A model generated the notes under the pieces. That model was not told where the DNA came from. It searched no databases and saw only the letters and a list, made by a program, of their open reading frames with translations. From a bacterium (lineage in GTDB: Bacteria; Arandabacterota; Arandabacteria; Arandabacterales; Arandabacteraceae), in NCBI GenBank assembly GCA_029933125.1, contig JAOZOU010000004.1:186001-250000 (forward strand): DNA of 64,000 nucleotides, written 5' to 3'. Below, piece by piece: positions 5,659 to 20,639 of the stretch; position 1 is the first letter of the stretch; each line of letters starts with the position of its first letter. A program made the position numbers and the translations under genes.

Positions 5659-6744
5659 ATGGAACCCAAGCGTACACCACTTTTTGAGAGACATGTGAAG
5701 GCAGGGGCAAGGATTGTTACTTTTGCTGGCTTCCTTATGCCCATCGAATTCACAGGTATTGTTGAAGAGCACCTTAGTGTTCGAAACAGTGTTGGAATCT
5801 TTGATGTCTCCCACATGGGTGAGATATCCATATCTGGTGAAGGTGCTCTCGACTATGTAAACCGTCTAACTACCAACGATGCCTCCAAGCTTGACGTCTG
5901 CCAGGCACAGTACTCCACTATGCTCAACAATTCTGGTGGAATCATAGACGATCTTCTTGTTTATCGGCGCAGGTTTGACTATCTCCTTGTTGTCAATGCT
6001 GCTAACACGGAGAAGGACTTTGCTTGGATTTATGAGAACAGGCCATCTGGCGTAAGGGTTGAGAATCAAAGTGAAGCGACTGGCCAGGTTGCTTTGCAAG
6101 GGCCAAGAGCAGTTGAGATTATGGTAAGGACTTGCGATGGCAACGTCGCTGATCTCGGAAGCTTCAGATCGATGGTGGCATCCATAGGTGGTGTCTCTTG
6201 CCTTGTCTCGAGAACGGGTTATACAGGTGAGGATGGTTTCGAGATATATGCCGATGCTGACAGGATCGGATTGATCTGGGATACGCTGATGGAGACGAAG
6301 CCCTTGCCCAAGCCCTGTGGCCTTGGGGCGCGTGATACCTTGCGACTCGAAGCCGGGATGCGACTTCATGGCGCTGATATTGACGAGACCACCACACCAC
6401 TTGAGGCAGGCTTGGGATGGGTTGTGAAGTTTGACAAGGGGGATTTTTTCGGTAAGCAGGCTCTCCTTGAGCAGAAAGCTAAGGGGCTTCAGCGCAAGCT
6501 CATTGGACTCAAGTCGTTTTCAAAGAGATTTCCCAGGAGAGGCTACAGGGTTGTGGTTGATGGTAAGGAGGTGGGCAGAGTAACCAGCGGTGGCTTCTCA
6601 CCTAGTCTTGAGTGCGGGATTGCCTTTGCCTATGTTGACAAAGAGTTTGCGAAAGAAGGGACGGATTTCAAAATAGATGTGCGTGGGCATCTTATAGATG
6701 CAACCATGGTGAAAGGTCCCTTTTACAAAAGGAGGCGAGACTAG
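5659..6744 (+). CDS. gcvT: Glycine cleavage T protein (aminomethyltransferase)
   Basis: Transfers the methylene group of aminomethyl-lipoyl-GcvH to tetrahydrofolate, releasing ammonia. I chose ATG 5659 (361 aa): GGAGGAG lies just upstream at 5650-5656 and the protein then begins MEPKRTPLFERH, the usual GcvT start. The frame is open further back (TTG 5611, ATG 5638, overlapping uvrA), but those starts add residues not seen in the family. Family motifs include FDVSHMGE near the N-terminus, LQGPRA, and the folate-site region SRTGYTGEDGFE. It begins the gcvT-gcvH-gcvPA-gcvPB run. No glycine riboswitch fits upstream, since uvrA coding sequence occupies that space, so expression is probably by read-through or an internal promoter. 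Confidence 0.96.
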   Translation: MEPKRTPLFERHVKAGARIVTFAGFLMPIEFTGIVEEHLSVRNSVGIFDVSHMGEISISGEGALDYVNRLTTNDASKLDVCQAQYSTMLNNSGGIIDDLLVYRRRFDYLLVVNAANTEKDFAWIYENRPSGVRVENQSEATGQVALQGPRAVEIMVRTCDGNVADLGSFRSMVASIGGVSCLVSRTGYTGEDGFEIYADADRIGLIWDTLMETKPLPKPCGLGARDTLRLEAGMRLHGADIDETTTPLEAGLGWVVKFDKGDFFGKQALLEQKAKGLQRKLIGLKSFSKRFPRRGYRVVVDGKEVGRVTSGGFSPSLECGIAFAYVDKEFAKEGTDFKIDVRGHLIDATMVKGPFYKRRRD

Positions 6745-6758
6745 AAAGGAGTAAGGAA

Positions 6759-7142
6759 ATGACTCAGGTTCCTGATGACCTTCTATACACCGAGAAGCAT
6801 GAATGGGTTAGGGTGCAAGATGACGTGGCTACCATTGGAATAACCGATTATGCGCAGGATCAACTGGGTGATATCGTCTATGTTGAGCTACCTGAGGCCG
6901 GAAGTAAGGTCGCGCAAATGGAAGCTTTTGGCACGATAGAGGCTGTCAAGGCCGTAAGTGATCTCTATTCGCCTGTCTCAGGTGAAGTGATTGAGGTAAA
7001 CGAAGCTTTAAGGGATGACCCTACCTCGATTAAGTCATCTCCCTATGGTGAGGGGTGGATGATAAAGGTGAAGATGAGCAATCAAGATGAACTTGCGACT
7101 CTGCTTCAACCTGACAAGTACCGCGAGCTCGTGGGTGGTTAG
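6759..7142 (+). CDS. gcvH: Glycine cleavage H protein, lipoyl carrier
   Basis: Small carrier (127 aa) that shuttles the aminomethyl group between P, T and L proteins on a lipoyl arm. The lipoylated lysine is Lys64 in the motif IEAVKAVSDLYSPVSGE, and the N-terminal YTEKHEWV and GITDYAQDQLGDIV segments are standard GcvH. ATG 6759 follows GGAGTAAGGA. It sits 14 bases after gcvT and 14 before gcvPA. The LipM-type enzyme at 17018-17761 in the same gene train is the likely source of its octanoyl or lipoyl group, and the dihydrolipoyl dehydrogenase at 44619 the likely reoxidising partner. Confidence 0.97.
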   Translation: MTQVPDDLLYTEKHEWVRVQDDVATIGITDYAQDQLGDIVYVELPEAGSKVAQMEAFGTIEAVKAVSDLYSPVSGEVIEVNEALRDDPTSIKSSPYGEGWMIKVKMSNQDELATLLQPDKYRELVGG

Positions 7143-7156
7143 GTAAGGAATAAGGT

Positions 7157-8512
7157 ATGTTCACGCCTCACAGTCAAAATGAAAAGATCAAGATGCTTAA
7201 GGCGATAGGGGTGGATAGTTTTCAGGATCTCCTTACCGATATACCGCCCGAGATTCGTCTCAAAGAGCCCCTGAAGCTTCGAGGTCGCCTTTCTGAGCTT
7301 GAAGCAAGAAGGTACCTTGAAGATTTGGCATCGCTTAACCTTCGCCCAAATGAGTGGATATCCTTTCTTGGTGGTGGTGCATACGATCATTACATACCAA
7401 GTGTTGTTGACCACATCGTCAGCAGATCCGAGTTTTATACTGCATATACCCCTTATCAGGCTGAAGTAAGCCAGGGCACCCTTCAGACGATCTATGAATT
7501 CCAATCATTGATTGTAAGGTTGACAGGCATGGAAATTGCCAACGCATCCCTTTATGATGGCGCTTCAGCCCTCGCCGAAGGCGTTCTAATGGCAAGTCAT
7601 ATCAACGGACGCAAGCAGGTTGTTGTCAGTGGATGCATTCACCCTCACCGCCTTAAAGTCCTCAAAACGTATCTTCGCTCGAGCGGTTTCGAAGTCAAAG
7701 TTACCTCCTGGCAGCATGGAAGGACGCAAGGCGATGAGATTTCCGATCTTACTACAGATGCTACTGCCTGTGTAGTGGTCGAAAATCCCAATTTTTTCGG
7801 CTGTGTTGAGGATGTTGAACCAATTGCCAATGCGGCTCACAAACATGGCGCACTTCTTATAAGCGTTGTTGATCCAATCTCACTCGGCCTTTTAGCTCCA
7901 CCAGGTCAGTATGGTGCAGATATCGCGGTGGGCGAGGGGCAGGCACTCGGTTGTCCTTTGAGTTTTGGTGGACCTTATCTCGGTTTCCTTGCAACAAGAA
8001 AGTCCTACATCAGAAAAATCCCCGGCAGAATAGTGGGCAGAACTCACGATAGGCACGGCAAGACATGCTATTGCTTAACCCTTCAGACCCGTGAGCAACA
8101 CATAAGGCGGGCTCGAGCAACATCAAATATTTGCACCAATCAGGCCCTGATGGCACTAAGGGCCACTGTCTACCTATGCTGGCTTGGTCGTGATGGCATA
8201 AGCGCGGTGGCAAACCAGTGCCTTGCCAAAGCTCACTATGCCCTTGGCGAGCTTGAGAAGGTCGGGGTGAAGAGAAGGTTTGATGCGCCATTCTTCAGAG
8301 AGTTTGTCGTGGAGTTTCCCAACGATGCTAGAGAGGTGATTCAGCAGCTCGCATCGCGAAAGTTTCTGGCAGGTATCCCCCTCAGTCGTTTCTATCCTGA
8401 AGAGCGAGGGGCTCTGCTCATGGCTTTTACCGAGAAGCGAGCAAAGCTGGAGATAGATATGTTTGTTGAGACGGTGAAGGAGATGGGTGTATGTGCCAAG
8501 AAGGCTGGCTAA
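7157..8512 (+). CDS. gcvPA: Glycine dehydrogenase (decarboxylating) subunit 1
   Basis: N-terminal half-equivalent of the P protein (451 aa), which decarboxylates glycine with pyridoxal phosphate and loads the aminomethyl group on GcvH. Visible motifs are FLGGGAYDHYIPSVVDHI, YTPYQAEVSQGTLQ and GGPYLGFLATR, all diagnostic of GcvPA. In this split form the PLP lysine sits in subunit 2. ATG 7157 follows AAGGAATAAGG. The 3' end overlaps gcvPB by 22 bases in a different frame, which suggests translational coupling of the two subunits that form one heterotetrameric enzyme. Confidence 0.97.
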   Translation: MFTPHSQNEKIKMLKAIGVDSFQDLLTDIPPEIRLKEPLKLRGRLSELEARRYLEDLASLNLRPNEWISFLGGGAYDHYIPSVVDHIVSRSEFYTAYTPYQAEVSQGTLQTIYEFQSLIVRLTGMEIANASLYDGASALAEGVLMASHINGRKQVVVSGCIHPHRLKVLKTYLRSSGFEVKVTSWQHGRTQGDEISDLTTDATACVVVENPNFFGCVEDVEPIANAAHKHGALLISVVDPISLGLLAPPGQYGADIAVGEGQALGCPLSFGGPYLGFLATRKSYIRKIPGRIVGRTHDRHGKTCYCLTLQTREQHIRRARATSNICTNQALMALRATVYLCWLGRDGISAVANQCLAKAHYALGELEKVGVKRRFDAPFFREFVVEFPNDAREVIQQLASRKFLAGIPLSRFYPEERGALLMAFTEKRAKLEIDMFVETVKEMGVCAKKAG

Positions 8513-9951
8513 GGTTCGGACAGACGCTTTTTGAAAAGAGCAGAGATGGCAGGGGTTCTTGTTCCTTGCCTGAGCTCGACGTGGAAGCTGTTGAACCCGA
8601 ATCCGTGATCCCATCAAACCTTCTCAGGCAAAAGCCTGCTGAGATGCCTGAGCTCAGTGAGCCCGAGATTGTTAGGCACTTCGTAGGACTTTCGGTAACC
8701 AATCATCATGTTGATCGTGATCTTTATCCCCTCGGCTCGTGTACGATGAAGTATAATCCCAAAGTTTGTGAGGATGTTGCGAATCTAGCTGGGTTTGTTG
8801 CGATTCATCCCTTCTCGCCCCCTGAGACAATTCAGGGTGCCTTGAGGCTCATGTATGAGCTCGGTCAAGCTCTTTGTGAAATAACGGGTATGGACGACTT
8901 CACCCTGGCCCCTGCAGCAGGAGCCCATGGAGAGTTCACAGGTATGCTCATGGTGAGAGCTTATCATGAGGCTAAGGGCAACCCAAGAAGTAAGGTGCTT
9001 ATTCCTGATTCGGCTCATGGTACCAATCCAGCAAGTGTGACTATTGCAGGCTATAGAGCTGTTGAGATTCCATCGGATTCGACTGGACGCATCGATGTTG
9101 AAAGGCTCAAGGCACATCTTGATCAAGAAGTTGCAGCTCTCATGGTCACCAATCCCAACACTCTTGGCTTTTTTGAGACCAATATCGCTGAGGTTGCTGA
9201 TCTCATTCATGGCGTTGGGGGCCTCGTCTACATGGATGGAGCGAATATGAATGCTCTTCTCGGGATTTCACGTCCCGGGGATTTTGGCATTGACATTGCC
9301 CACCTCAATCTTCATAAGACATTCGGAACCCCGCATGGAGGGGGTGGGCCGGGTTCTGGACCGCTTGTTGTTAAGAAAGCTCTGAGTCCGTTTCTTCCTG
9401 TGCCTGTGATTGTCAAAGAGGGGGAGAAGTACAGACTTGAAGAGGATCGCCCGCAGTCAATTGGTCGCATCCACGGTTTCTATGGCAACTTTGGGGTTAT
9501 GGTGAAAGCCTATTGCTATATCCTTCTCGCAGGCCCAGAGGGCTTGCGCGAAATTGCTGAATGCGCAACAATCAATGCCAACTACTTGCTTGCGAAGCTC
9601 CGAAGATATTTCGAAGTTCCTTATGATGGGTTCTGTAAGCATGAATTTGTTCTCAGCGGTAAGGACAAGGCCGCGAAGGGTGTCAAAACTCTTGACATTG
9701 CCAAGCGCTTGATGGATTTTGGGTTTCACCCTCCCACCATTTATTTTCCGTTGATAGTTGAAGAGGCTTTGATGATTGAGCCGACTGAGAGTGAGAATCT
9801 TGAGACTCTCGATAGGTTCGTAGAAGCAATGGTATGCATAAACGAGGAAATAGAGCGAGATCCTGAAAAGGTCAAGAGCGCACCCCATACCACACCGGTT
9901 GGAAGGGTGGATGAAGCAAATGCAGCCAGGGGACTCGATGTCGCCGGATGA
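8491..9951 (+). CDS. gcvPB: Glycine dehydrogenase (decarboxylating) subunit 2
   Basis: PLP-bearing half of the split P protein (486 aa). The Schiff-base lysine is Lys276 in LNLHKTFGTPHGGGGPGSGP, followed by the glycine-rich loop typical of P proteins. Earlier motifs are PLGSCTMKYNPK and DSAHGTNPAS. ATG 8491 lies inside the end of gcvPA, and no other usable start occurs before the conserved LFEKSRDGRG segment, so the 22-base overlap appears real. Together with GcvT, GcvH and the distant L protein this completes glycine cleavage, used either for glycine catabolism or, in reverse, for glycine synthesis in anaerobes. Confidence 0.97.
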   Translation: MCQEGWLRFGQTLFEKSRDGRGSCSLPELDVEAVEPESVIPSNLLRQKPAEMPELSEPEIVRHFVGLSVTNHHVDRDLYPLGSCTMKYNPKVCEDVANLAGFVAIHPFSPPETIQGALRLMYELGQALCEITGMDDFTLAPAAGAHGEFTGMLMVRAYHEAKGNPRSKVLIPDSAHGTNPASVTIAGYRAVEIPSDSTGRIDVERLKAHLDQEVAALMVTNPNTLGFFETNIAEVADLIHGVGGLVYMDGANMNALLGISRPGDFGIDIAHLNLHKTFGTPHGGGGPGSGPLVVKKALSPFLPVPVIVKEGEKYRLEEDRPQSIGRIHGFYGNFGVMVKAYCYILLAGPEGLREIAECATINANYLLAKLRRYFEVPYDGFCKHEFVLSGKDKAAKGVKTLDIAKRLMDFGFHPPTIYFPLIVEEALMIEPTESENLETLDRFVEAMVCINEEIERDPEKVKSAPHTTPVGRVDEANAARGLDVAG

Positions 9952-10369
9952 ATCCGCCAGGCTTGAGTGGAGTGTTTTACCTTTCAAGGAGAATCTCAAG
10001 CGCTCCATGATAGTTGTTGGTATAATAATAGGGAGTGGTTTCGTCGTGTATCTTGGTTTTGGCGATGTTTTTCTGGGGGTGCTATCCGTTGTCATCCTTC
10101 TTGTTTCGCTTCATACCTACTTTACAAGGACTACTTATTGCCTTACATCCAAAGGTGTCGAAATCAGGAGTTCTCTTGGACGGACTTTCAAGTCTTGGTC
10201 TGAATTCAAACGCTTCCATGCTGATGGCAAAGGAATAAGCCTTTCCCCTTTTGAGAAGCCATCAAGGCTTGAACCCTTTAGATCTGTCCGTCTATTGTAT
10301 GGAGGTAATAGGGAAGATGTGGTGGAATTTGTTTCGAAGAACATCGGGCGAGACACCACCGACAATTGA
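9911..10369 (+). CDS. Small membrane protein, possibly with a PH-like domain
   Basis: About 152 aa from ATG 9911; TTG 9899, ATG 9920 and ATG 9938 are alternatives. GGAAGGGTGG lies just upstream of 9911. It starts inside the last 41 bases of gcvPB. Two adjacent hydrophobic segments (about residues 30-70) are followed by a soluble part with YFTRTTYCLTSKGVEIRSS and a strand-rich segment ending in a helix. This layout resembles small bacterial PH-like (bPH_2/YcxB-type) membrane proteins, but the match is from memory and weak. It overlaps the next small gene by 53 bases, so the two are probably made together. Function unknown. Confidence 0.6.
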   Translation: MKQMQPGDSMSPDESARLEWSVLPFKENLKRSMIVVGIIIGSGFVVYLGFGDVFLGVLSVVILLVSLHTYFTRTTYCLTSKGVEIRSSLGRTFKSWSEFKRFHADGKGISLSPFEKPSRLEPFRSVRLLYGGNREDVVEFVSKNIGRDTTDN

Positions 10370-10694
10370 GACTCAAGAGACAAAGTCTGAAAATTTCACG
10401 GATGAGGATGCCGAGCTCATAAGGAAGGTCGCTGAACGCATCGTGAGGATGAGGATGACCGTTCCAGCCATTTTCTTTCTGGAATCAAGTAAACCGCTTG
10501 CTTTTCTAGGTGGTCAGTTGCTAATTTTCTTGGAGCCGTTTGTGCAGACGCTTTTTAATTTTAGACAATATCAACGGTTTGCCTTCCTAATGGAAGATCG
10601 CGCAAACTGGGAACGGCTTATCAGGAAAGTTGAGGATCTCGAGGCAGAATATACTGAGCGGGAGAAGCAGGAAAAGCTTAGGAAAAAGAAGTGA
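10317..10694 (+). CDS. Small protein with hydrophobic core and charged C-terminal helix
   Basis: About 125 aa from ATG 10317, preceded by GGAGG at 10301-10305. The frame is open back to 10251, but the extra residues look like shadow translation of the upstream gene. A mid-protein hydrophobic stretch (FLGGQLLIFLEPFVQTLFNF) could be one membrane or membrane-associated helix. The C-terminus is a long charged helix or coiled coil ending in a lysine-rich tail. It overlaps the upstream gene by 53 bases and ends 15 bases before the likely start of the GlmL-like gene. No family recognised. Its coupling suggests a role with the downstream GlmL/DUF6754 cluster. Confidence 0.55.
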   Translation: MWWNLFRRTSGETPPTIETQETKSENFTDEDAELIRKVAERIVRMRMTVPAIFFLESSKPLAFLGGQLLIFLEPFVQTLFNFRQYQRFAFLMEDRANWERLIRKVEDLEAEYTEREKQEKLRKKK

Positions 10695-10709
10695 TGAGAG
10701 GTGGTTACT

Positions 10710-12515
10710 GTGAATAAGGACCCCAAGGAGATTCAGACCATTATTGCAACCGATTGCGGTAGTACAACTACGAAGGCGATCTTGATCGAACGTAAGGGAG
10801 ACGAATATCGCCTCATAGTTCGAGGGGAGGCTCCTACAACCGTTGAAGCCCCTTTTGAGGATGTGACTCGAGGTGTTCTCAATGCAGTTGCTGAGGTTGA
10901 AGATCTGACGGGGAGGAAGTTTATTCAGAATGACAGGATAATCCATCCAAGGCAGGATGGTGTTGGAACAGATCTCTATGTCTCAACCTCATCTGCTGGC
11001 GGTGGATTGCAGATGATGGTCGCTGGTGTTGTCAAAGAAATGACTGCTGAGAGTGCTCAGCGCGCTGCGCTTGGAGCAGGGGCAATAGTAATGGATGTGA
11101 TAGCCTCAAATGATCAACGCCAGCCCCACGAAAGGATTCAGCGAATAAGGAGTTTGCGTCCCGATATGATTCTGCTTTCGGGTGGGGTTGATGGGGGAAC
11201 CACAACTCATGTTGCCGAGCTGGCTGAGCTTATTGCAGCAGCTGATCCCAGACCACGACTTGGAATGGCATATTCTCTGCCGGTCATCTATGCAGGCAAT
11301 GTTGATGCACGGGAGATTGTTAAGGAGCGGCTTGGATCAAAGACGAGTCTTACAATAACCGAAAATCTTCGGCCAGTGCTTGAAAGAGAAAACCTTCAGC
11401 CGGCCAGACTTGAGATCCAGAAACTCTTCCTTGAGCATGTAATGATGCATGCGCCTGGATACAAAAAGCTGATGGAGTGGACGCCCGTGCCAATCATGCC
11501 GACACCTGCTGCAGTTGGTTCCATAATGCAGCTGATTGCGAAGGAGGAAGGCATAAATGTTGTAGGTGTTGACATCGGCGGAGCCACAACTGATGTTTTC
11601 TCCGTTTTTGGAGAGGTCTTTAACAGGACTGTTAGCGCTAACCTTGGAATGAGCTACTCTATTTCAAACGTGCTTGCCGAGGCCGGTGTGGAGAACATAT
11701 TGCGCTGGGTTCCTTTTGACGTTGAGGTCGGTGATCTGCGCAACAGAATCAAGAACAAGATGATCCGACCTACGACAATCCCTCAAACGCTTGAGGAGCT
11801 CATGATTGAGCAAGCGATTGCGAGAGAAGCTCTGAGGCTAGCTTTTGAACAGCATAAGCTTTTGGCTGTTGGGCTTAAAGGTGTGCAGCAGGAAAGAACC
11901 ATTTCGGATACCTTTGAGCAGACAGAGAGCGGTGCCACCCTTGTCAACATGATGGAACTCGACATACTTGTTGGGAGTGGAGGAGTTCTTTCGCATGCTC
12001 CCAGAAGAGTTCAGGCAGCCTTCATGCTGATAGATGGCTTCCATCCCGAAGGGATAACACAGCTTGCTGTTGACAGCATATTCATGATGCCGCAGCTAGG
12101 TGTGCTTGCCCAGGTCCATCCCAAGGCAGCTCTTGAGGTTTTCCACAAGGATTGCTTGATAAGGCTTGGTACGTGCATAGCACCTGTTGGCACTGCCAAG
12201 GACGGTGACGACTGCCTCGAGATTGCTCTTGAGATGCCTGATGGCAGTAAGCAGACAAGAAGTGTCAAGTTTGGGGAGATGCTTCTCATTCCCCTAGACG
12301 TGAATGAGAAAGCAAAAGCGACAATCCATCCTACTCGAAGGTTTGACGTAGGTGCCGGTAGGGGAAAGACAATTCATGTCGAGCTTACAGGTGGTGTTGC
12401 CGGTATCATAGTAGATTGCCGTGGACGGCCACTGAATCTTCCACAGGATAAGGACGAGAGAGTGCGTAAGCTTAGAGCGTGGAACAAGGCTCTTGATGTC
12501 TATCCAGGAGAATGA
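10710..12515 (+). CDS. GlmL/MutL-family ASKHA ATPase, orphan (no mutase genes nearby)
   Basis: I favour GTG 10710 (601 aa), because GAGAGGTGG at 10697-10703 is well spaced for it; GTG 10701 is the in-frame alternative. The N-terminus has the ASKHA phosphate-loop motif DCGSTTTK (residues 15-22) and a second one, VGVDIGGATTDVFSV, near residue 288. The segment RGEAPTTVEAPFEDVTRGV also matches GlmL (glutamate mutase accessory, a chaperone-type ATPase). It is not the mismatch-repair MutL. Ordinary GlmL is about 460 aa, so roughly 140 extra residues at the C-terminus form an additional domain. No glmS/glmE or other B12-mutase gene lies in the window. It is followed by a barrel-sandwich protein and four membrane genes, so the substrate is probably not glutamate mutase. 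Family assignment good, role unknown. Confidence 0.8.
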   Translation: MNKDPKEIQTIIATDCGSTTTKAILIERKGDEYRLIVRGEAPTTVEAPFEDVTRGVLNAVAEVEDLTGRKFIQNDRIIHPRQDGVGTDLYVSTSSAGGGLQMMVAGVVKEMTAESAQRAALGAGAIVMDVIASNDQRQPHERIQRIRSLRPDMILLSGGVDGGTTTHVAELAELIAAADPRPRLGMAYSLPVIYAGNVDAREIVKERLGSKTSLTITENLRPVLERENLQPARLEIQKLFLEHVMMHAPGYKKLMEWTPVPIMPTPAAVGSIMQLIAKEEGINVVGVDIGGATTDVFSVFGEVFNRTVSANLGMSYSISNVLAEAGVENILRWVPFDVEVGDLRNRIKNKMIRPTTIPQTLEELMIEQAIAREALRLAFEQHKLLAVGLKGVQQERTISDTFEQTESGATLVNMMELDILVGSGGVLSHAPRRVQAAFMLIDGFHPEGITQLAVDSIFMMPQLGVLAQVHPKAALEVFHKDCLIRLGTCIAPVGTAKDGDDCLEIALEMPDGSKQTRSVKFGEMLLIPLDVNEKAKATIHPTRRFDVGAGRGKTIHVELTGGVAGIIVDCRGRPLNLPQDKDERVRKLRAWNKALDVYPGE

Positions 12516-12529
12516 TGGAGGTGTAACAA

Positions 12530-13660
12530 TTGGCACATGCCTATACGCCAGGACTGAGGGTTGCTAGACAGACTGAGGTGAAAAAGGAGCGTAGGCTTCC
12601 ACTAAAGGGTGAGGTTCTCGTAAAAGTAGGTGATAAAGTAAAGGCTGAAACGATAGTTGCTAGGACAGAGCTCCCCGGTAATGTCCAGACGATAAATGTT
12701 GCCAACAAGCTAAGTATCCTGCCTGAAGATGTTGAGCGCCACATGCTTGTGAAAGTCGGGGATTGGGTTGAGGAAGGGCAAGTCATAGCTGAAAGCCGCA
12801 GCTTTTTCGGTCTTTTCAAGTCAAGGTGCACAATGCCTGTTTCGGGTACTATCGAGTCGATATCCAATATTACGGGTCAGGTGATCGTCAGAGAGAAAGC
12901 AATACCTGTTGAGGTTGACGCTTATGTGGATGGAGAGGTTGTTGAGCTCTATGAGAATGAAGGCATAATGGTGAGAACGATTGCGACCTTTGTCCAGGGT
13001 ATCTTCGGGATAGGAGGCGAGTCAATCGGTGTGCTTGACGTCGTTGCCGAGAATCCTGAGGAGATCCTCCAGCCTGACGCTCTAACGCCCGAGCACAAGG
13101 GAAAGATCATTCTTGGAGGTTCACTTGTCACCATAGAGGCTTTAAGAAGAGCTCAAGAGGTTGGGGCAAAGGGGATAATCGCGGGTGGTATTGGGGATGC
13201 TGATCTCAGAACGATATTGGGTTACGATCTCGGAGTTGCCATAACCGGTTCTGAAGACATAGGACTGACGGTGGTTGTCACCGAGGGTTTTGGAAAGATG
13301 ACGATGGCGAAGCGCACATTCGATCTTTTATCCTCAAGACAGGGTATGAAAACATCCATAAGCGGAGCCACCCAAATAAGAGCTGGAGTCATACGTCCTG
13401 AGGTTGTTATCCCCCTTGATTCGTCTCGCCTTGAGAGTGATGGCGAGATTGAGGATGCTCCCTCGACAGGTCTTACCATTGGCAGGCATGTAAGGGTTAT
13501 CAGGGAGCCTTACTTTGGCAGGATCGGTAAAGTTGCTGCATTGCCTCCCGAGCTTCAGAAGCTTGAGACTGAGGCAATGGTGAGAGTGCTCGAAGTTGAA
13601 TTTGAGGATGGCAGTCGTGCGACAATCCCACGTGCTAATGTTGAATTGATTGAGGAATAG
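12530..13660 (+). CDS. Barrel-sandwich-hybrid protein of unknown function, linked to GlmL-like ATPase
   Basis: 376 aa from TTG 12530, which has GGAGGTG about 8 bases upstream. The first 130 residues show two lipoyl/RnfC-like barrel-sandwich repeats: KVGDKVKAETIVARTELPG and KVGDWVEEGQVIAE, followed by MPVSGTIESI. There is no lipoyl or biotin lysine motif, so it is probably not a modified carrier. The middle (about 185-285) is an alpha/beta segment with IILGGSLVTIEALRRAQ and GAKGIIAGGIGDADLR. The C-terminus (about 320-376) resembles a KOW-like barrel (GRIGKVAALPPELQ). No membrane segments. It overlaps the next gene by 11 bases. Probably a cytoplasmic partner of the neighbouring ATPase and membrane proteins; this is inference. 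Confidence 0.65.
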   Translation: MAHAYTPGLRVARQTEVKKERRLPLKGEVLVKVGDKVKAETIVARTELPGNVQTINVANKLSILPEDVERHMLVKVGDWVEEGQVIAESRSFFGLFKSRCTMPVSGTIESISNITGQVIVREKAIPVEVDAYVDGEVVELYENEGIMVRTIATFVQGIFGIGGESIGVLDVVAENPEEILQPDALTPEHKGKIILGGSLVTIEALRRAQEVGAKGIIAGGIGDADLRTILGYDLGVAITGSEDIGLTVVVTEGFGKMTMAKRTFDLLSSRQGMKTSISGATQIRAGVIRPEVVIPLDSSRLESDGEIEDAPSTGLTIGRHVRVIREPYFGRIGKVAALPPELQKLETEAMVRVLEVEFEDGSRATIPRANVELIEE

Positions 13661-14786
13661 GCACGCTCATGAGCTTGCCTGCAGGCGAATCCTGGTGATG
13701 GCTACGCTTCCGCTGCTTCTATCCGTGATGCTTTGGGGATCGGGATTCGCCTCAAGTTTCAACGTCTCCGATTTGCCTAACGATGATGGCTCTGCGCTCG
13801 AGCTGACATGGGAAGCCAGCATCCCAGAGGATTCCCTGGTTAGCATCTTAAGGACAACTTTACCCGATACCAACTGGGTGCTCGTAGCAAAGCTCAAGGG
13901 CGGTAAGGGCAACTACATTGACCGTGGTTTGAGCAGGGATTCTCTCTTTGCCTATCGGTTGCTTCTTCCTGGTGGACTTACCATCACAACTCACCAAGTG
14001 AGACCAGTGGCTTCGCTTATAAACAGAGGTAGGATCAATCAGCTCATCATACTCAGCCTCTTCTTCACTTTTGTCCTTGTTTACATAAAGCTTGCTTCCA
14101 AGGGCAAGCGCTTCTTTGTAAGAAGAATATCGGGGCTGGGAGCTATTGAGGAGGCGATTGGTAGAGCGACGGAGATGGGTAGGCCAATCCTCTATGTCCC
14201 TGGGATAGATGATCTCAACAACATTCAGACAATCGCAAGTATGGTTATTCTCAATGATGTTGCCCGTCTTGCGGCAACCTATGAGAGCCCAGTAATAGTT
14301 CCTGTCTGCAAGCCATTTGTTGTTCCAGTTGCTGAGGAAGCCGTGAGGCAGGGTTTCCTCAACGCTGGCAGGCCGGAGCTTTATAATCCTGACAACATTC
14401 GCTATCTCTCCGACGAGCAGTTTGCCTTCACAGCAGGAGTAAATGGCATCATGCTAAGGGAGCGAACAGCAGCTAACATCTACATGGGATCTTTCTTCGC
14501 GGAATCACTAATCCTTGCAGAGACAGGATTCTCAGCCGGTGCTATTCAGGTAGCGGGGACAGCCAATATTCATCAGCTGCCGTTTTTCGTCGCTGCCTGT
14601 GATTACACGCTCATCGGGGAGGAACTTTTTGCTGCAAGCGCGTACCTTTCGCATGAACCGAAGCTGCTGGGAACACTTAAAGCGAGTGATCTTGCAAAGA
14701 TCTTGATAATAGGCATTTTGATCATTGGCTTCATTGCTGAATCCATTGGCTGGCATAGATTCGCTGATCTATTCGCCGCGAGGTAA
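13650..14786 (+). CDS. Membrane protein, DUF6754-like
   Basis: 378 aa from TTG 13650; ATG 13698 is a later in-frame alternative that would leave a shorter signal sequence. Order of parts: an N-terminal hydrophobic segment (about residues 15-35); a fibronectin-like outside domain (about 36-115); a membrane helix (IILSLFFTFVLVYIKLA, about 132-150); a conserved alpha/beta domain with RPILYVPGIDDLNNIQTIAS; and a last membrane helix (ILIIGILIIGFIAESIGW). The large conserved domain resembles DUF6754 as I remember it; a Pfam search would settle this. It is the first of four consecutive membrane genes. Function undescribed to my knowledge. Confidence 0.65.
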   Translation: MRNRHAHELACRRILVMATLPLLLSVMLWGSGFASSFNVSDLPNDDGSALELTWEASIPEDSLVSILRTTLPDTNWVLVAKLKGGKGNYIDRGLSRDSLFAYRLLLPGGLTITTHQVRPVASLINRGRINQLIILSLFFTFVLVYIKLASKGKRFFVRRISGLGAIEEAIGRATEMGRPILYVPGIDDLNNIQTIASMVILNDVARLAATYESPVIVPVCKPFVVPVAEEAVRQGFLNAGRPELYNPDNIRYLSDEQFAFTAGVNGIMLRERTAANIYMGSFFAESLILAETGFSAGAIQVAGTANIHQLPFFVAACDYTLIGEELFAASAYLSHEPKLLGTLKASDLAKILIIGILIIGFIAESIGWHRFADLFAAR

Positions 14787-14789
14787 CAC

Positions 14790-15410
14790 GTGAAGAACGA
14801 GGTACCCATTGCTATTGCATTTTTCACAGGCATGCTAATGGTTGCCTCGCTCTTTGTTCCCCATCCCGTGATAGCGACACCAGCATCGGTGGTAAGGCAA
14901 TGGGCAATAATAATTACAGCTTTTGCCTATGTCCTGGGTGTAGCCAACATTGCTAGGATCAGTCTCCACGCGGTAAGCAAACGCCAGAAGGACTGGCAAT
15001 ATAAAGCCGCCCTTGTGGCTTCCCTAATCATCATGGCTTCAATAGGCATAGGCTTCGGGATAGAAAGTGGAGGTACATTTGATTGGGCATACCTCAATAT
15101 GTATGTCCCTATGCAGGCAACCATGTTTTCCCTGCTAGCTTTCTACATTGCATCAGCCGCTTATAGAGCTTTTCGGGCAAGATCACCTGAGGCAACGTTT
15201 CTACTTGTAACGGCTGCGATAGTGATGCTTGGGAGGGTTCCTGTTGGGGAGAAAATCTGGAGTGGCTTGCCAAGCTTTACCGAATGGATAATGGAAGTTC
15301 CCAACATGGCTGCCAAGCGAGGCATTATGATTGGTGCAGCGCTCGGCGCTATCTCAACCGGGCTCAAGATGATCCTGGGCCTTGAGCGTTCCTATCTTGG
15401 AGGGGACTAG
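14790..15410 (+). CDS. Polytopic membrane protein of the DUF6754-like cluster
   Basis: 206 aa from GTG 14790, three bases after the previous stop. About six hydrophobic segments are visible, including VPIAIAFFTGMLMVASLF, ALVASLIIMASIGIGFG and MIGAALGAISTGLKMILG at the C-terminus. No transporter or enzyme motif recognised. Tight spacing on both sides (3 bases upstream, 1 base to the next start) argues for an obligate partner in one membrane complex with the flanking genes. Confidence 0.65.
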   Translation: MKNEVPIAIAFFTGMLMVASLFVPHPVIATPASVVRQWAIIITAFAYVLGVANIARISLHAVSKRQKDWQYKAALVASLIIMASIGIGFGIESGGTFDWAYLNMYVPMQATMFSLLAFYIASAAYRAFRARSPEATFLLVTAAIVMLGRVPVGEKIWSGLPSFTEWIMEVPNMAAKRGIMIGAALGAISTGLKMILGLERSYLGGD

Positions 15411-15411
15411 A

Positions 15412-16254
15412 TTGGCTACCAGGCAGGGCAAGGATATCATTTTCAAGCTTTCTCGCATTGACCGTCGCTGCATCTATATAGTCATCCTCATCTGCGTGAT
15501 AGTTCCCTTGGTGACAGGTGTACGGATGGAAATGTCAGTGACATCTCCGGTGCGAACACTCTATGAGGCTATTGAGAAATTGCAGCCAGGATCTTACGTC
15601 TGGCTGGCGGCTGATTACGATCCTGGTTCAATGCCAGAGCTCTTTCCCATGAATGTTGCCATAGTTGAGCATCTCTTTTCAAGAGACATAAAGATTATCT
15701 GTGGGGCTCTCTGGGCTCCTGGTCCGCCCCTGGCTCAACGTGTCTTTGATGAGCTGGCTCCCAAGTATGGGAAGGTCTATGGGGTTGACTATGTCAACCT
15801 TGGTTTCAAGGAGGGACGTGAAGCTGTAATGGTCTCACTTGCTGAGGATATGAAGGCAACGTTTCCTCAGGATTTCCTTAGCACTCCATGGGATAGCATT
15901 CCGATGCTTCGGCACATGAGCAATCTAAACGATGTAAAGATGATAATATGCATCTCTGCTGGGTATCCCGGAATAAAAGAGTGGTTGCAGCAGATATCAA
16001 CTAGATACAAGATCCCCATTGGGGGAGGGGTTACCGCTGTGAGTGGTCCTGAGATGTACCCTTATATTCAGTCTGGGCAGCTCGTTGGTCTTCTGGCTGG
16101 CATGAAGGGCGCAGCTGAATATGAGCAATTGGTTGGCCATCCTGGTCTTGGTTTGGCTGGTATGGTTGCTCAATCGTATGTCCACGTTATGGTCGTCGGT
16201 TTTATCATATTTGCGAATATCGTTTTCTTCCTTGAGAAGAGGAGCAAGCGATGA
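15412..16254 (+). CDS. Membrane-anchored protein with large outside domain, DUF6754-like cluster
   Basis: 280 aa from TTG 15412, chosen because GGAGGGG lies 6 bases upstream; the frame opens earlier at 15382 but those residues overlap the previous gene. One membrane helix near the N-terminus (IVILICVIVPLVTG), a soluble alpha/beta domain (about residues 45-235) and a C-terminal membrane helix (HVMVVGFIIFANIVFFLEKR). The soluble part includes SYVWLAADYDPGSMPELFPM and MKGAAEYEQLVGHPG. The stop overlaps the next ATG (ATGA). No family recognised; probably a structural subunit of the same membrane assembly. Confidence 0.65.
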   Translation: MATRQGKDIIFKLSRIDRRCIYIVILICVIVPLVTGVRMEMSVTSPVRTLYEAIEKLQPGSYVWLAADYDPGSMPELFPMNVAIVEHLFSRDIKIICGALWAPGPPLAQRVFDELAPKYGKVYGVDYVNLGFKEGREAVMVSLAEDMKATFPQDFLSTPWDSIPMLRHMSNLNDVKMIICISAGYPGIKEWLQQISTRYKIPIGGGVTAVSGPEMYPYIQSGQLVGLLAGMKGAAEYEQLVGHPGLGLAGMVAQSYVHVMVVGFIIFANIVFFLEKRSKR

Positions 16255-17021
16255 GGGGATTGAAGTTTTTTGCCATCATCGTTGTCGTCGCCCTGGCTGC
16301 GATTGCTTTGCGAGGTGGACTGATTTCAAAGGCTGGGCTCGGCACCTGGGTGGCAGCTTTGCTAACGCTTGCCATCTTTAGCTTCCTATATAAAGACAAT
16401 CCTATCTATAAACTGGCTGAGCATGTGTTCATAGGAGTGGCGGCTGGCTATTTTGTTGCTCTCGAGTACTGGAATGTTTTCCTTCCCAATCTCTGGGATC
16501 CCCTGAGTGAAGGCCTGCGCCAAAGTGCCCTGAGCCCATTTCCTCACTTTCCCAATATGATTCTACTCATCCCGTTTGCCCTGGGTATTCTGCTTTTTAC
16601 GAGGTTTTTCCCAAAGGTGGCATGGTTGAGCCGATGGTCAATGGCTGCCATGATAGGTTCGTATTCGGGCTTGGCAATTATTGGGGCTCTTCAAGGCGAC
16701 CTTGTAGCTCAGATAAGAGCAAACATGCTTCCACTTTACTCCGAGCAAGCAGCCAGGGCTCTCGAAGGCGGACCATTCCTCTTCGGAATTCTTGAGCTTG
16801 TTCGCAATCCTCTCATCATTGTTGGTCTTCTCGCTACGCTTGTTTACTTCTTTTTCTCAAGAGAACACAGGGGTGGGCTGGGCATTGCTGCGCGGATTGG
16901 CATATGGTTCCTTATGATATCGTTTGGCGCGTCATTTGGGTATACGGTCATGAGCAGGGTATCGCTTCTGATCGGCCGTCTTCACTTCCTTTTGAGTGAC
17001 TGGCTGGGGATAATAAGATGA
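16251..17021 (+). CDS. Polytopic membrane protein of the DUF6754-like cluster
   Basis: 256 aa from ATG 16251, overlapping the previous stop by 4 bases. About seven hydrophobic segments are visible: the N-terminal FFAIIVVVALAAIALRG, then HVFIGVAAGYFVALEYW, ILLIPFALGILLF, a serine/glycine-rich helix around SYSGLAIIGAL, IIVGLLATLVYFFFS and two more near the end. I recognise no family. The 3' end overlaps the LipM-like gene by 4 bases (ATGA). Likely the last membrane subunit of the cluster starting at 13650. Confidence 0.65.
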   Translation: MRGLKFFAIIVVVALAAIALRGGLISKAGLGTWVAALLTLAIFSFLYKDNPIYKLAEHVFIGVAAGYFVALEYWNVFLPNLWDPLSEGLRQSALSPFPHFPNMILLIPFALGILLFTRFFPKVAWLSRWSMAAMIGSYSGLAIIGALQGDLVAQIRANMLPLYSEQAARALEGGPFLFGILELVRNPLIIVGLLATLVYFFFSREHRGGLGIAARIGIWFLMISFGASFGYTVMSRVSLLIGRLHFLLSDWLGIIR

Positions 17022-17761
17022 AGAGGGGTGTCAAGCTCAAGTTGCTTCCTTACGCTATCTATGATGGTCTCAAAAACATGAGGATTGATACCTACCTCCT
17101 TGAAATATGTGAAAGCGATCCCCGGTGTGGCTTCCTCAGATTCTACGGATGGGCTCATCCCACACTCTCCCTCGGACGCTTTGAAAAGACTGAGGTGATC
17201 GATGTGGAAAGGGCAGCTGAGGATGGTGTCGATATAGTGAGGCGCCCAACCGGTGGGAGAGTTGTCTTACACGGTGATGACCTGACCTATGCAGTTGTTG
17301 TCCCCCTCAGGATCGGGACGAGTTTGCAGGAGATCTATGCAGGTATTTCAGAATGCCTCATGAGGGGATTGAGCTTGCTGGGTCTCGACCTGACTTTCGA
17401 AAAAGGCAGGTTGGCAAGAACCGATCTTCGAATCAAACCATGTTTCGCATCTGCAGCCAGATATGAGATTACCTGGCAGGGCAAGAAACTTGTAGGAAGC
17501 GCTCAGCGTGTTGGGAAGCAAGCTGTACTGCAGCATGGGAGCATTCCCATTGGAAGGGGATATCTCAAGGTTATTGACTATATGAGATGCGATGACAGAG
17601 CTCGCTTGAGGCTGAGGAAGCAAATGGAGAAAAGCACCTGTTGTCTCAAGGGAATAGCACCAAACGAGTTTACTGCTGCTCAGGTTTCGAGCTTTATCCT
17701 GGAAACCTTCAGGGAGGTTTTTGATATTTTGCAGCCTATTTCGTTAGAGGGCAAAGTTTGA
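17018..17761 (+). CDS. Lipoate/octanoate transferase, LipM/LplA family
   Basis: 247 aa. Attaches octanoate or lipoate to lipoyl-carrier proteins such as GcvH. Family motifs seen: SLGRF, RRPTGGRVVLHGDDLTY (the RRxTGGRAVxHxxxLTY signature), and KPCFASAARYEITWQGKKLV followed by GSAQRVGKQAVLQHGSIPIG. The cysteine in KPCF matches the acyl-enzyme cysteine of LipM (octanoyl-ACP:GcvH transferase), so LipM-type activity is favoured over ATP-dependent LplA; length suits either. ATG 17018 overlaps the previous stop (ATGA). It closes the uvrA-to-lipM gene train, and its placement with gcvTHPAPB supports GcvH as substrate. Confidence 0.85.
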   Translation: MKRGVKLKLLPYAIYDGLKNMRIDTYLLEICESDPRCGFLRFYGWAHPTLSLGRFEKTEVIDVERAAEDGVDIVRRPTGGRVVLHGDDLTYAVVVPLRIGTSLQEIYAGISECLMRGLSLLGLDLTFEKGRLARTDLRIKPCFASAARYEITWQGKKLVGSAQRVGKQAVLQHGSIPIGRGYLKVIDYMRCDDRARLRLRKQMEKSTCCLKGIAPNEFTAAQVSSFILETFREVFDILQPISLEGKV

Positions 17762-17913: not shown

Positions 17914-20616
17914 ATGTCTGCCTTGATTAGGATCAGCTTTGTACTTGCCCTTGTTTTGCTTTTTGCAGTCACCTCTGTGTTTGGCCAGGAGGTCGGAAGG
18001 ATTGAAGGAACTGTGGTGGCTGCTAAGGATGGGAAACCCTTAGCCTATGCTAATGTGCTTCTTGTTGGTACGGGCATGGGGACATTTGCTAAGCAAAACG
18101 GAACTTTTACGCTTGAGAATGTTCCTGCAGGAACGTATACCGTCAAGGTCATGATGATGGGTTACGCTGCTCAGACAAGGGAGAACGTTGTTGTCAAGCC
18201 AGGGGAGACCACGCGGCTTAGATTTGAGCTCAAAGAGACTGTTGTGATGGAAGTGCCTGTTGTTGAAGTGGAAGCTGAAAGACCGATGGTTGATACCGAG
18301 CGAACCCAAACGAAGCGAACCATCGATACCAAGGAAGTCGCTGTGCGCTCGATCAATACAGTTGAGGATGCTATTGCAACCCAGGCTGGAGTCGTTCTTG
18401 AACAGGGCGAGATCCATATTCGAGGTGGAAGATCTGGTGAAGTCAAGCAGTTTGTCGACGGTATTCAGATCAGTGATCCTTTCGTCGGCGCCAACTCGAT
18501 GGAGCTCAGCCTTGCATCGCTTTCAGAGATAGAAGTTCTTTCGGGTGGCTTTGATGCTGAATATGGCAATGTCCAGTCCGGTGTTATCAATCTCAAGACG
18601 AGAGAGGGTGGAACGAGATATTCGGGTCTTGTTAAGTATATGACTGATGACTATGGAGCACCTGATAAGACCTATTTCAACTACGATGATTTAGCAATCG
18701 GCTTTGGGGGACCTCTGATTACAACCAATCTGAGATTTTTTGCCTCTGGCGAGGTTATGTTTACTGACACCTACCTTAAGACTCTTGAACCCAGGCAGCA
18801 AAAGGAGCTTTGGGGATTCATCAAGTTCCGTGAACGTCAGAGCAATAGCTACTCAGGTCAATGCAAGGTTACCTACTTCTTCACACCGACGAAAAAGCTC
18901 TCCTTGGAGTATCTCACCTCGGGTGAGAAGTTTGATTTTTATCATCATGCATTCAGTCGTGTTGGTTATTGGTCAGAAGCCCACAGACACTGGTGGTTTG
19001 AACCGCTTGATTCAACCTATAGCCTTTACATAGCACCTGCCCACACACCTGATATTACAAATGAACATAACAGTGTTAAGCTTGTCTGGAGACACACAAT
19101 AAGCCCATCCGCATTTTACACGATGCGCCTCGGAAGATACGTCGCACTTCATAAAGAGGTTGTCCTTGGCAAGAAACCCTATGAATATGTGACCCCGAAC
19201 TTCAACGATCGAGTTGATCCCGAAAACCGCTACTATGTTGTGCAGGGCGATTATCCAATCTGGCAGCGCTATCATACGACGATGTACACAGGCAAAGGCG
19301 ATATGACCATTACCAAGGGTACGACTCATCAGATAAAGTTTGGTGCAGAGTCACACGCCTATCGCCTCGAGATGATGGATTTGCGTTATCCCTCCCTCGA
19401 TAACCCCCTTGGTGTATTCACTGATATATACAAGTTCCATTGCTGGGACCTGTCAGCCTTCATTCAGGATCGCATAAGGTTTGAGGGTATGAACTTGAGG
19501 GTGGGCCTAAGATTTGACCTTTTCGACCCTGGTAAGGATGCTGTCGAAGCCTATAATAGATTCGTGGTATCGACAGGTTTTAAGCCCAAGCCAGCCTCCT
19601 TCTTCAAGCGAATTGAGTGGCAGATAAGTCCGCGCTTTGGGGTTTCCTATCCTATTTCAGAAAGAGACGCCCTTTACTTCAATTATGGGAGATTCTACCA
19701 GATTCCAAGGCTCGAGGTTCTTTACCAGTTCCTGGGTCGAACCGAGCAGGGACTGCTTCCTTTCGGTAATCCCCTCATGGATGCTGAGACAACAATAATG
19801 TATGAAGTTGGCATTCAACATCAATTCACTCCAACGATTGTTGGTGATATTGCCCTGTTCTATAAGGACATCTTTGGACTTACGGGCACTGAGGCAGCCG
19901 ATCTAACTGAGGATTCTGACTTTATTCAGACCTATGGTCCGACCGCCACACCTGTTGTCTTTGTCAACCTTGACTATGGATCGGTGAGAGGCATTGAATT
20001 CAAACTCAGCAAACGTTTCAGCCATCATTTCCAGGGCAGTCTAACTTATACTTTTTCCAAGGCTACTGGCTCGAGCTCTAACGAGCTCCAGGGTGCCAAT
20101 GTTGTGAGTGGGGCAATGGATCGAGCTCCGATAACTGAGCTGCCCCTTGATTGGGATAGAAATCATGTCATATCTGCAAATCTATATATAAGTGAGCCCG
20201 GGCTTTGGGGTTGCAACATTGACTGGAGCTATTCGTCAGGAGCACCCTATACGCCAATGTTGCCGAGGGAGCGTGAGGTCAGGGCTTCATTGATAAATTC
20301 AAGGCGGCTTCCTTCACGGAGCACGGTCAATGTGAAGGCCGACAAGCGTTACAAGATTGCTGGCCAGGAAGTTTCCCTCTTCCTCGAAGGCAGAAACATA
20401 CTGAACCGCAAGAACATCGCTACGCTTGATCCAGGAGATTGGCCGGGTGGGGATGGCAACTACGCCGCGTATTATACAAGGGAGGGTAGGTTTGGTGGAG
20501 CTTATGACTTGGGTGAGCTGCTCGGGCTTACGGAGGTGATTTACATTCCTTTGAACGATCCACGAGTCTACTCGCCGCCTCGCAACTTCAGGGTTGGCAT
20601 ATCATTCGACTGGTAA
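17914..20616 (+). CDS. TonB-dependent outer-membrane receptor with carboxypeptidase-like N-terminal domain (copy 1)
   Basis: 900 aa. Signal peptide about 1-24 (LALVLLFAVTSVFGQ). Then a carboxypeptidase-regulatory-like beta domain (about 28-110, with GKPLAYANVLLVGTGMGTF and NVPAGTYTVKV). Next the plug (about 125-240, with IHIRGGRSGEVKQFVDGIQI and GFDAEYGNVQSGVINLKTREGG). Finally a long beta-barrel ending in Trp (VGISFDW), as outer-membrane proteins usually end in an aromatic residue. It resembles SusC/OmpA-like receptors that import a ligand using TonB energy; no SusD partner is present. Instead it is followed by a secreted protein and a PorV-like barrel, an arrangement repeated at 37686-43196. 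ATG 17914 has GGAGGGG upstream. Substrate unknown. Confidence 0.9.
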   Translation: MSALIRISFVLALVLLFAVTSVFGQEVGRIEGTVVAAKDGKPLAYANVLLVGTGMGTFAKQNGTFTLENVPAGTYTVKVMMMGYAAQTRENVVVKPGETTRLRFELKETVVMEVPVVEVEAERPMVDTERTQTKRTIDTKEVAVRSINTVEDAIATQAGVVLEQGEIHIRGGRSGEVKQFVDGIQISDPFVGANSMELSLASLSEIEVLSGGFDAEYGNVQSGVINLKTREGGTRYSGLVKYMTDDYGAPDKTYFNYDDLAIGFGGPLITTNLRFFASGEVMFTDTYLKTLEPRQQKELWGFIKFRERQSNSYSGQCKVTYFFTPTKKLSLEYLTSGEKFDFYHHAFSRVGYWSEAHRHWWFEPLDSTYSLYIAPAHTPDITNEHNSVKLVWRHTISPSAFYTMRLGRYVALHKEVVLGKKPYEYVTPNFNDRVDPENRYYVVQGDYPIWQRYHTTMYTGKGDMTITKGTTHQIKFGAESHAYRLEMMDLRYPSLDNPLGVFTDIYKFHCWDLSAFIQDRIRFEGMNLRVGLRFDLFDPGKDAVEAYNRFVVSTGFKPKPASFFKRIEWQISPRFGVSYPISERDALYFNYGRFYQIPRLEVLYQFLGRTEQGLLPFGNPLMDAETTIMYEVGIQHQFTPTIVGDIALFYKDIFGLTGTEAADLTEDSDFIQTYGPTATPVVFVNLDYGSVRGIEFKLSKRFSHHFQGSLTYTFSKATGSSSNELQGANVVSGAMDRAPITELPLDWDRNHVISANLYISEPGLWGCNIDWSYSSGAPYTPMLPREREVRASLINSRRLPSRSTVNVKADKRYKIAGQEVSLFLEGRNILNRKNIATLDPGDWPGGDGNYAAYYTREGRFGGAYDLGELLGLTEVIYIPLNDPRVYSPPRNFRVGISFDW

Positions 20617-20639
20617 AGACCGTTAGGGAGGGTCGAAGA

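Follow-up and report, generated by a model that had tools for sequence, protein, structure and literature searches.

The closest described relatives of the ATPase considered here are GlmL/MutL, an accessory of methylaspartate mutase, and Or-4 of ornithine 4,5-aminomutase, which share with it the PF13941 family of ASKHA ATPases and the nucleotide motifs. This ATPase, designated MutLx, is encoded in a 64,000-nucleotide stretch of an Arandabacterota genome (hereafter the window; contig JAOZOU010000004.1, positions 186,001 to 250,000), as part of a cassette (9911-17021, + strand) with the gene order bPH, orf2, MutLx, BSH, DUF6754, TM6, TM7 and TM8. Unlike GlmL and Or-4, MutLx is about 119 residues longer, falls outside the mutase-associated clade, has no mutase neighbours and is tied to DUF6754 and to the barrel-sandwich protein BSH. 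The fifth gene of the cassette encodes a full member of the recognised family DUF6754 (PF20539), for which the Pfam entry gives no function. One repeat of BSH passes the cut-offs of RnfC_N and NQRA_N, but nothing of RnfC or NqrA is found beyond that domain.

An initial annotation of the window had put these genes forward as a candidate membrane system without described function. All of its genes were found where it had placed them and on the same strand, and the same gene order recurs in many phyla, far beyond chance. No paper on DUF6754 turned up in the literature collection searched, and none of the papers found there records its link to TM6-TM7-TM8, to an FN3 domain or to MutLx-BSH.

Co-occurrence of MutLx and BSH with a multi-copy membrane quartet

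A scan of one genome per species gave at least 576 confirmed relatives, of which the best 80 belong to Zixiibacteriota, Cloacimonadota, Fermentibacterota, Eiseniibacteriota, Stahliibacteriota, Latescibacterota, Myxococcota, Effluviviacota, Coatesiibacteriota, Edwardsiibacteriota, Electryoneota, Armatimonadota, Acidobacteriota and others. Co-occurrence was analysed in 242 genomes (completeness 90% or more) from about 200 families, which came from a list of relatives extended to other families and were not drawn at random. MutLx was taken here as a MutL of at least 550 amino acid residues (aa) or a long form interrupted by a stop or by the end of a contig. DUF6754 is present in 66 of these genomes and in none of 14 well-known control genomes. 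MutLx was detected in 62, every one of them DUF6754-positive, and 176 genomes have neither (Fisher p 1.9e-53, with no phylogenetic correction). BSH is likewise present in 62 of the 66 DUF6754 genomes, with one weak match elsewhere (E 3.7e-4). The scattering of homologues apart from one another, named in the initial annotation as an outcome that would make the cluster incidental, did not occur, as MutLx and BSH are confined to DUF6754 genomes, that weak match aside.

The membrane part of the cassette behaves as a quartet. Counting on six reading frames with all loci read, TM6, TM7 and TM8 follow DUF6754 on the same strand in 99 of the 103 copies with room downstream. Two of the four exceptions are a TM7 split between frames (L128) and an apparent misordering caused by frames that overlap (L197); in the other two DUF6754 is followed by no more than part of TM6 (L154) or stands alone (L061). 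The latter copy (L061:8125-9246), which lacks TM6-TM7-TM8, lies in the window's own genome and is closest to the copy of L062. Near DUF6754, TM6 was found in 128/128, TM7 in 124/124 and TM8 in 122/123 cases, in loci retrieved by way of DUF6754 or MutL, a choice that favours such a result. Quartets occur in one to seven copies per genome, with tandem runs of up to three, compared to MutLx and BSH, which are usually single copy in the same genomes. The window's genome carries six DUF6754 genes, five of them in full quartets, and one MutL. The tie of MutLx and BSH to genomes with one to seven quartets, seen in many uncultured phyla, suggests a widespread cell machine.

The initial annotation had treated the ATPase, BSH and the four membrane proteins as one coupled set, but a single six-gene unit is not borne out: of 80 quartet loci, 44 contain neither MutLx nor BSH in the surrounding 10 kb or so. 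The set consists of two modules, the multi-copy quartet and the MutLx-BSH pair, which is preceded by bPH-orf2 and mostly present once per genome. When the 128 DUF6754 domains placed on a tree are labelled by whether they adjoin MutLx or BSH, the label switches 19 times, with at least nine of these changes forced by well-supported branches, and the paralogues of the window's genome are mostly nearer to copies of other phyla than to one another. Because the quartets adjoining MutLx or BSH are scattered over this tree, various quartet types have held the place beside the ATPase. Such a scatter would be expected if one pair serves all quartets, and it is the main ground from which the mechanism proposed below was inferred.

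No recurrent function was found in the flanks of MutLx or of the MutL-BSH fusions described below, beyond lineage-specific neighbours. No relatives were found on the viral contigs and plasmids searched, and hence there is no sign of a mobile element. Omp85, used as a diderm marker, is present in 64 of the 66 DUF6754 genomes and in 225 of the 242 overall, and does not discriminate.

Several single loci were recorded alongside these counts. A divergent DUF6754, a 736-aa MutL and a divergent BSH occur together in G068 (L194-L196) and also in G195, the two genomes of a family without Omp85, and may represent a variant system of bacteria that lack an outer membrane. WOR-3/Stahlbacteria loci (L143, L108, L124, L137 and L146) have a run of genes of similar size after the quartet, which in L143 (12844-17965) includes a DUF4388 protein, ExbB, two ExbD and TonB. 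In a Coatesbacteria locus (L118:13102-19837) pieces of the MutLx frame flank an inverted second quartet, as in a rearranged or assembly-broken cassette. Two genomes of one genus (G108:C102:6718-7410 and G231:C3:6234-6926) have a DUF6754 frame with one TGA each, which could be a shared pseudogene or recoding.

Proteins encoded in the cassette and its flanks

MutLx (10701..12515, + strand; 604 aa) is a long GlmL/MutL-family protein matching PF13941 with 431.2 bits (cut-off 27) over residues 14-485. The extra C-terminal region claimed in the initial annotation is therefore present, at about 119 residues and not about 140. The phosphate-1 motif DCGSTTTK, the phosphate-2 motif DIGGATTD and GSGG are kept in all aligned MutLx rows. 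Motifs of this type are the usual nucleotide contacts of ASKHA proteins, and by its phosphate-1, phosphate-2 and adenosine motifs MutLx is classed as an ASKHA ATPase. A profile search of MutLx against the PDB gave no significant match.

The adjacent gene encodes BSH (12530..13660, + strand; 376 aa), with a middle domain without assignment and a KOW-like end. It had been described as a two-repeat barrel-sandwich/KOW-like protein, of which the barrel-sandwich part holds for one repeat, above the Pfam cut-offs of RnfC_N (33.4 vs 25.6), NQRA_N (25.5 vs 25) and Biotin_lipoyl (24.5 vs 22.1), while the KOW match falls below its cut-off (13.8 vs 22.3). No significant match was obtained in a BSH profile search against the PDB. 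Identity to the window's copies stays high in other lineages, at 61-73% for MutLx (up to 85% in a near relative) and 50-60% for BSH (up to 76%), so both proteins are strongly constrained. Several DUF6754 genomes encode, as a second MutL, MutL-BSH fusion proteins of 875-1034 aa, which support a physical MutLx-BSH pair and possibly represent a second use of the same pair. The fusions (L096:1439-4081 and L187-L193) were seen only in DUF6754 genomes, beside varied housekeeping genes.

The DUF6754 protein (13650..14786, + strand) matches PF20539 with 372.4 bits (cut-off 27), in agreement with its first description as a DUF6754-like membrane protein. After a signal/anchor helix, its structural model (pLDDT 90.6) comprises an FN3 domain, a transmembrane (TM) helix followed by a segment of strong positive charge, an alpha/beta domain that is conserved, and a C-terminal TM helix. 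The FN3 domain is recognised both by a PDB profile (E 2.2e-15) and by a fold match (VIA; Z 10.7, root-mean-square deviation (rmsd) 1.9, 81 aligned), and FN3 entries fill the fold-match list of the whole protein. By the charge rule, the FN3 domain is probably outside and the alpha/beta domain cytosolic. TM7 (15382..16254, + strand; model pLDDT 93) has a TM helix, a Rossmann-like alpha/beta domain, placed by the same rule probably in the periplasm, and a long TM helix with the invariant residues H268 and N279. In fold comparisons that considered an SIS or Rossmann family for the alpha/beta domains of DUF6754 and TM7, the best TM7 matches were 1kjn (Z 10.0, rmsd 3.5, 140 aligned) and the CODH/ACS epsilon subunit (Z 8.9), with many rows tied at 7.5-8.9, so that neither stands far above background; Foldseek returned nothing at E below 0.001, and PDB profile searches gave no significant match for TM7 and no match for TM6 and TM8. 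TM6 (14790..15410, + strand) and TM8 (16251..17021, + strand) are predicted polytopic membrane proteins with about 6 and 6-7 TM segments, the latter with a conserved loop, KDNP-Y--AEH. No Pfam family reached its cut-off for TM6, TM7 or TM8, as anticipated in the initial annotation for three membrane proteins without a known family. Profile comparison detected no homology between DUF6754 and TM7 or between TM6 and TM8; read by eye in the models, helices and strands follow one another in the same order in the alpha/beta domains of DUF6754 and TM7.

Upstream of MutLx, the small membrane protein encoded by bPH (9911..10369, + strand) weakly resembles bacterial PH domains (bPH_7, E 0.034, below cut-off), and its homologues precede orf2-MutLx in several lineages. 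The small protein of orf2 (10317..10694, + strand) has a conserved hydrophobic stretch (RMRMTVPAIFFLESSKPL..FLG.Q..FLEPF) and no Pfam family above cut-off, and the next recognised gene 3' of orf2 is MutLx in 35 of 38 cases. The reported 53-base overlap of bPH and orf2 holds if orf2 starts at the ATG at 10317.

The cassette lies within thirteen tightly packed + strand genes (5659-17761). Directly upstream are the glycine-cleavage genes gcvT, gcvH, gcvPA and gcvPB (5659..9951, + strand), the last of which is overlapped by about 40 bases at the start of the cassette, and downstream is a lipoate-protein ligase gene of LplA/B type (17018..17761, + strand; PF21948, 94.8 bits), which overlaps TM8 by 4 bases. 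No RNA genes were found in the window by ARAGORN or Rfam. Beyond the ligase (17914-22778), reading by eye gave a 900-aa protein like a TonB receptor and a large exported protein whose C-terminal tail resembles a sorting signal.

Proposed mechanism and competing explanations

The explanation that we favour, with about an even chance of being right, is a modular machine in the inner membrane of bacteria that are mostly uncultured, with one MutLx-BSH pair serving all quartets. Its membrane part would be a four-protein unit of DUF6754, the polytopic TM6 and TM8, and TM7, with one to seven units per genome, and its cytosolic part would pair MutLx, as an ATPase of Hsp70/ASKHA type that has a C-terminal domain of its own, with BSH as a barrel-sandwich adaptor. 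MutLx would bind and hydrolyse ATP and, through BSH, work on DUF6754 at its cytosolic alpha/beta domain, and may thereby assemble, reset or drive the quartet, and the outer FN3 and TM7 domains would handle a partner on the envelope side. We infer in this way the topology, the physical complex, the coupling to ATP and the one-to-many service, as well as the remodelling or driving of the quartet by ATP hydrolysis.

Several observations weigh against this machine. Contact between MutLx and the membrane proteins is putative, and the alpha/beta domains of DUF6754 and TM7 have only weak fold matches. Conserved charged residues within TM segments are few, other than in the last helix of TM7, so that a transport path is not evident. 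The flanks of lone quartets hold varied, lineage-specific neighbours with no recurrent function and no hint of a substrate. Four DUF6754 genomes lack MutLx: G014, at 100% completeness, carries BSH and three quartets without any MutL, and G066, G084 and G209 have neither MutLx nor BSH, suggesting that the quartet can manage without the ATPase in some lineages. Such lineages would suit an envelope-sensing, adhesion or surface scaffold, in which the quartet is structural or signalling with its FN3 domain outside and MutLx-BSH is solely a folding and assembly chaperone. The FN3 domain itself, the probable location of the two alpha/beta domains on opposite sides of the membrane and the DUF4388 and ExbB/ExbD/TonB genes adjoining WOR-3 quartets speak in the same direction. 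However, nothing points to a signal or a ligand, and the near-complete tie between quartet and ATPase is strong for a helper needed only in folding, and we consider this scaffold unlikely, though a serious candidate. An Rnf/Nqr-like redox-driven ion pump with BSH as its soluble docking subunit would account for the RnfC_N and NQRA_N matches and for the polytopic proteins of the membrane block, but is very improbable given that BSH scores far below full RnfC (22.6 vs 246) and NqrA (16.2 vs 321), that no cysteine cluster of iron-sulphur type was seen among the conserved columns, and that so few charges are conserved in the TM segments.

The neighbourhood of the cassette raises another possibility, a membrane-bound add-on of glycine cleavage and lipoate metabolism in which BSH is a lipoyl-like carrier charged by the adjoining ligase. 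The gcvT-H-PA-PB genes also precede MutLx in Eisenbacteria, Fermentibacteria, Effluviviacota and other relatives, where a lipoate ligase often follows the quartet; by coordinates, gcv genes precede MutLx in families f73, f101 and f144 of the genome set; and glycine decarboxylase is commoner in DUF6754 genomes (63/66) than in the others (121/176). Against this, MutLx has neighbourhoods unrelated to glycine cleavage in other lineages, and two genomes (G015 and G181) have MutLx and BSH without glycine decarboxylase (GDC-P), so that glycine cleavage is not required for the set. Moreover, the position of the lipoyl lysine in BSH is an invariant phenylalanine, F93, in 16/16 sequences (register set by eye from conserved glycines), which makes BSH unlikely to carry lipoate, and the add-on as a whole is improbable. 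Least probable is that MutLx is an ordinary B12-mutase accessory of GlmL/Or-4 function with incidental neighbours, despite its place in PF13941, its best NCBIfam likeness to GlmL and Or-4, and two methylmalonyl-CoA mutase genes on another contig of the window's genome. MutLx falls below the GlmL equivalog NF040745 (230.5 vs 475 bits), the Or-4 equivalog NF040744 (216.5 vs 600 bits) and the GlmL subfamily TIGR01319 (170.7 vs 204 bits). Short MutLs of 445-510 aa, by contrast, lie in four of the loci examined beside GlmE, a GlmS-like protein that binds B12 or OraE, a B12-bearing aminomutase, and form one clade on a long branch (support 99/99), separate from MutLx, with the MutL-BSH fusions as a weaker group. 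Glutamate mutase, PF06368, was above cut-off in none of 60 genomes (the window's and 59 relatives), and PF09043 (ornithine/lysine aminomutase) was missing from the window's genome but matched in the positive controls G190 and G120. Four MutLx genomes (G011, G019, G041 and G046) lack PF06368 above cut-off, PF01642 (methylmalonyl-CoA mutase) and PF09043, and MutLx is wholly confined to DUF6754 genomes. These results uphold the initial annotation, which had noted that no mutase gene is present and called the ATPase an orphan; the adjoining B12 mutase that would have spoken against it was found beside short MutLs and in no MutLx locus read.

Comparison with known systems

Returning to the modular machine, we tentatively suggest, with somewhat less confidence than in the machine itself, a new class of ATP-driven membrane machine in which one ASKHA ATPase with a barrel-sandwich adaptor powers interchangeable FN3-bearing quartets in a large share of uncultured bacteria. 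A system without described function in 66 of 242 sampled genomes, and in none of 14 controls, marks a sizeable gap in bacterial cell biology. MutL-family ATPases would thereby gain a second, testable role apart from mutases, which may help to explain the general function of the family.

No known kind of system has the membership of this set, in which MutLx alone comes from a known ATPase family. Energy-coupling factor (ECF) transporters combine one shared energising module, containing P-loop ATP-binding cassette (ABC) ATPases, with small S proteins. The likeness lies in the logic only, one ATP-using part for many membrane units, and no homology is claimed; the parts here are an ASKHA ATPase, a barrel-sandwich protein and a four-protein unit. 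In diol dehydratase reactivase and the BadF-type ASKHA activators, an ASKHA ATPase and a partner act on soluble client enzymes, whereas the only consistent partners of MutLx are the barrel-sandwich protein and the membrane quartet.

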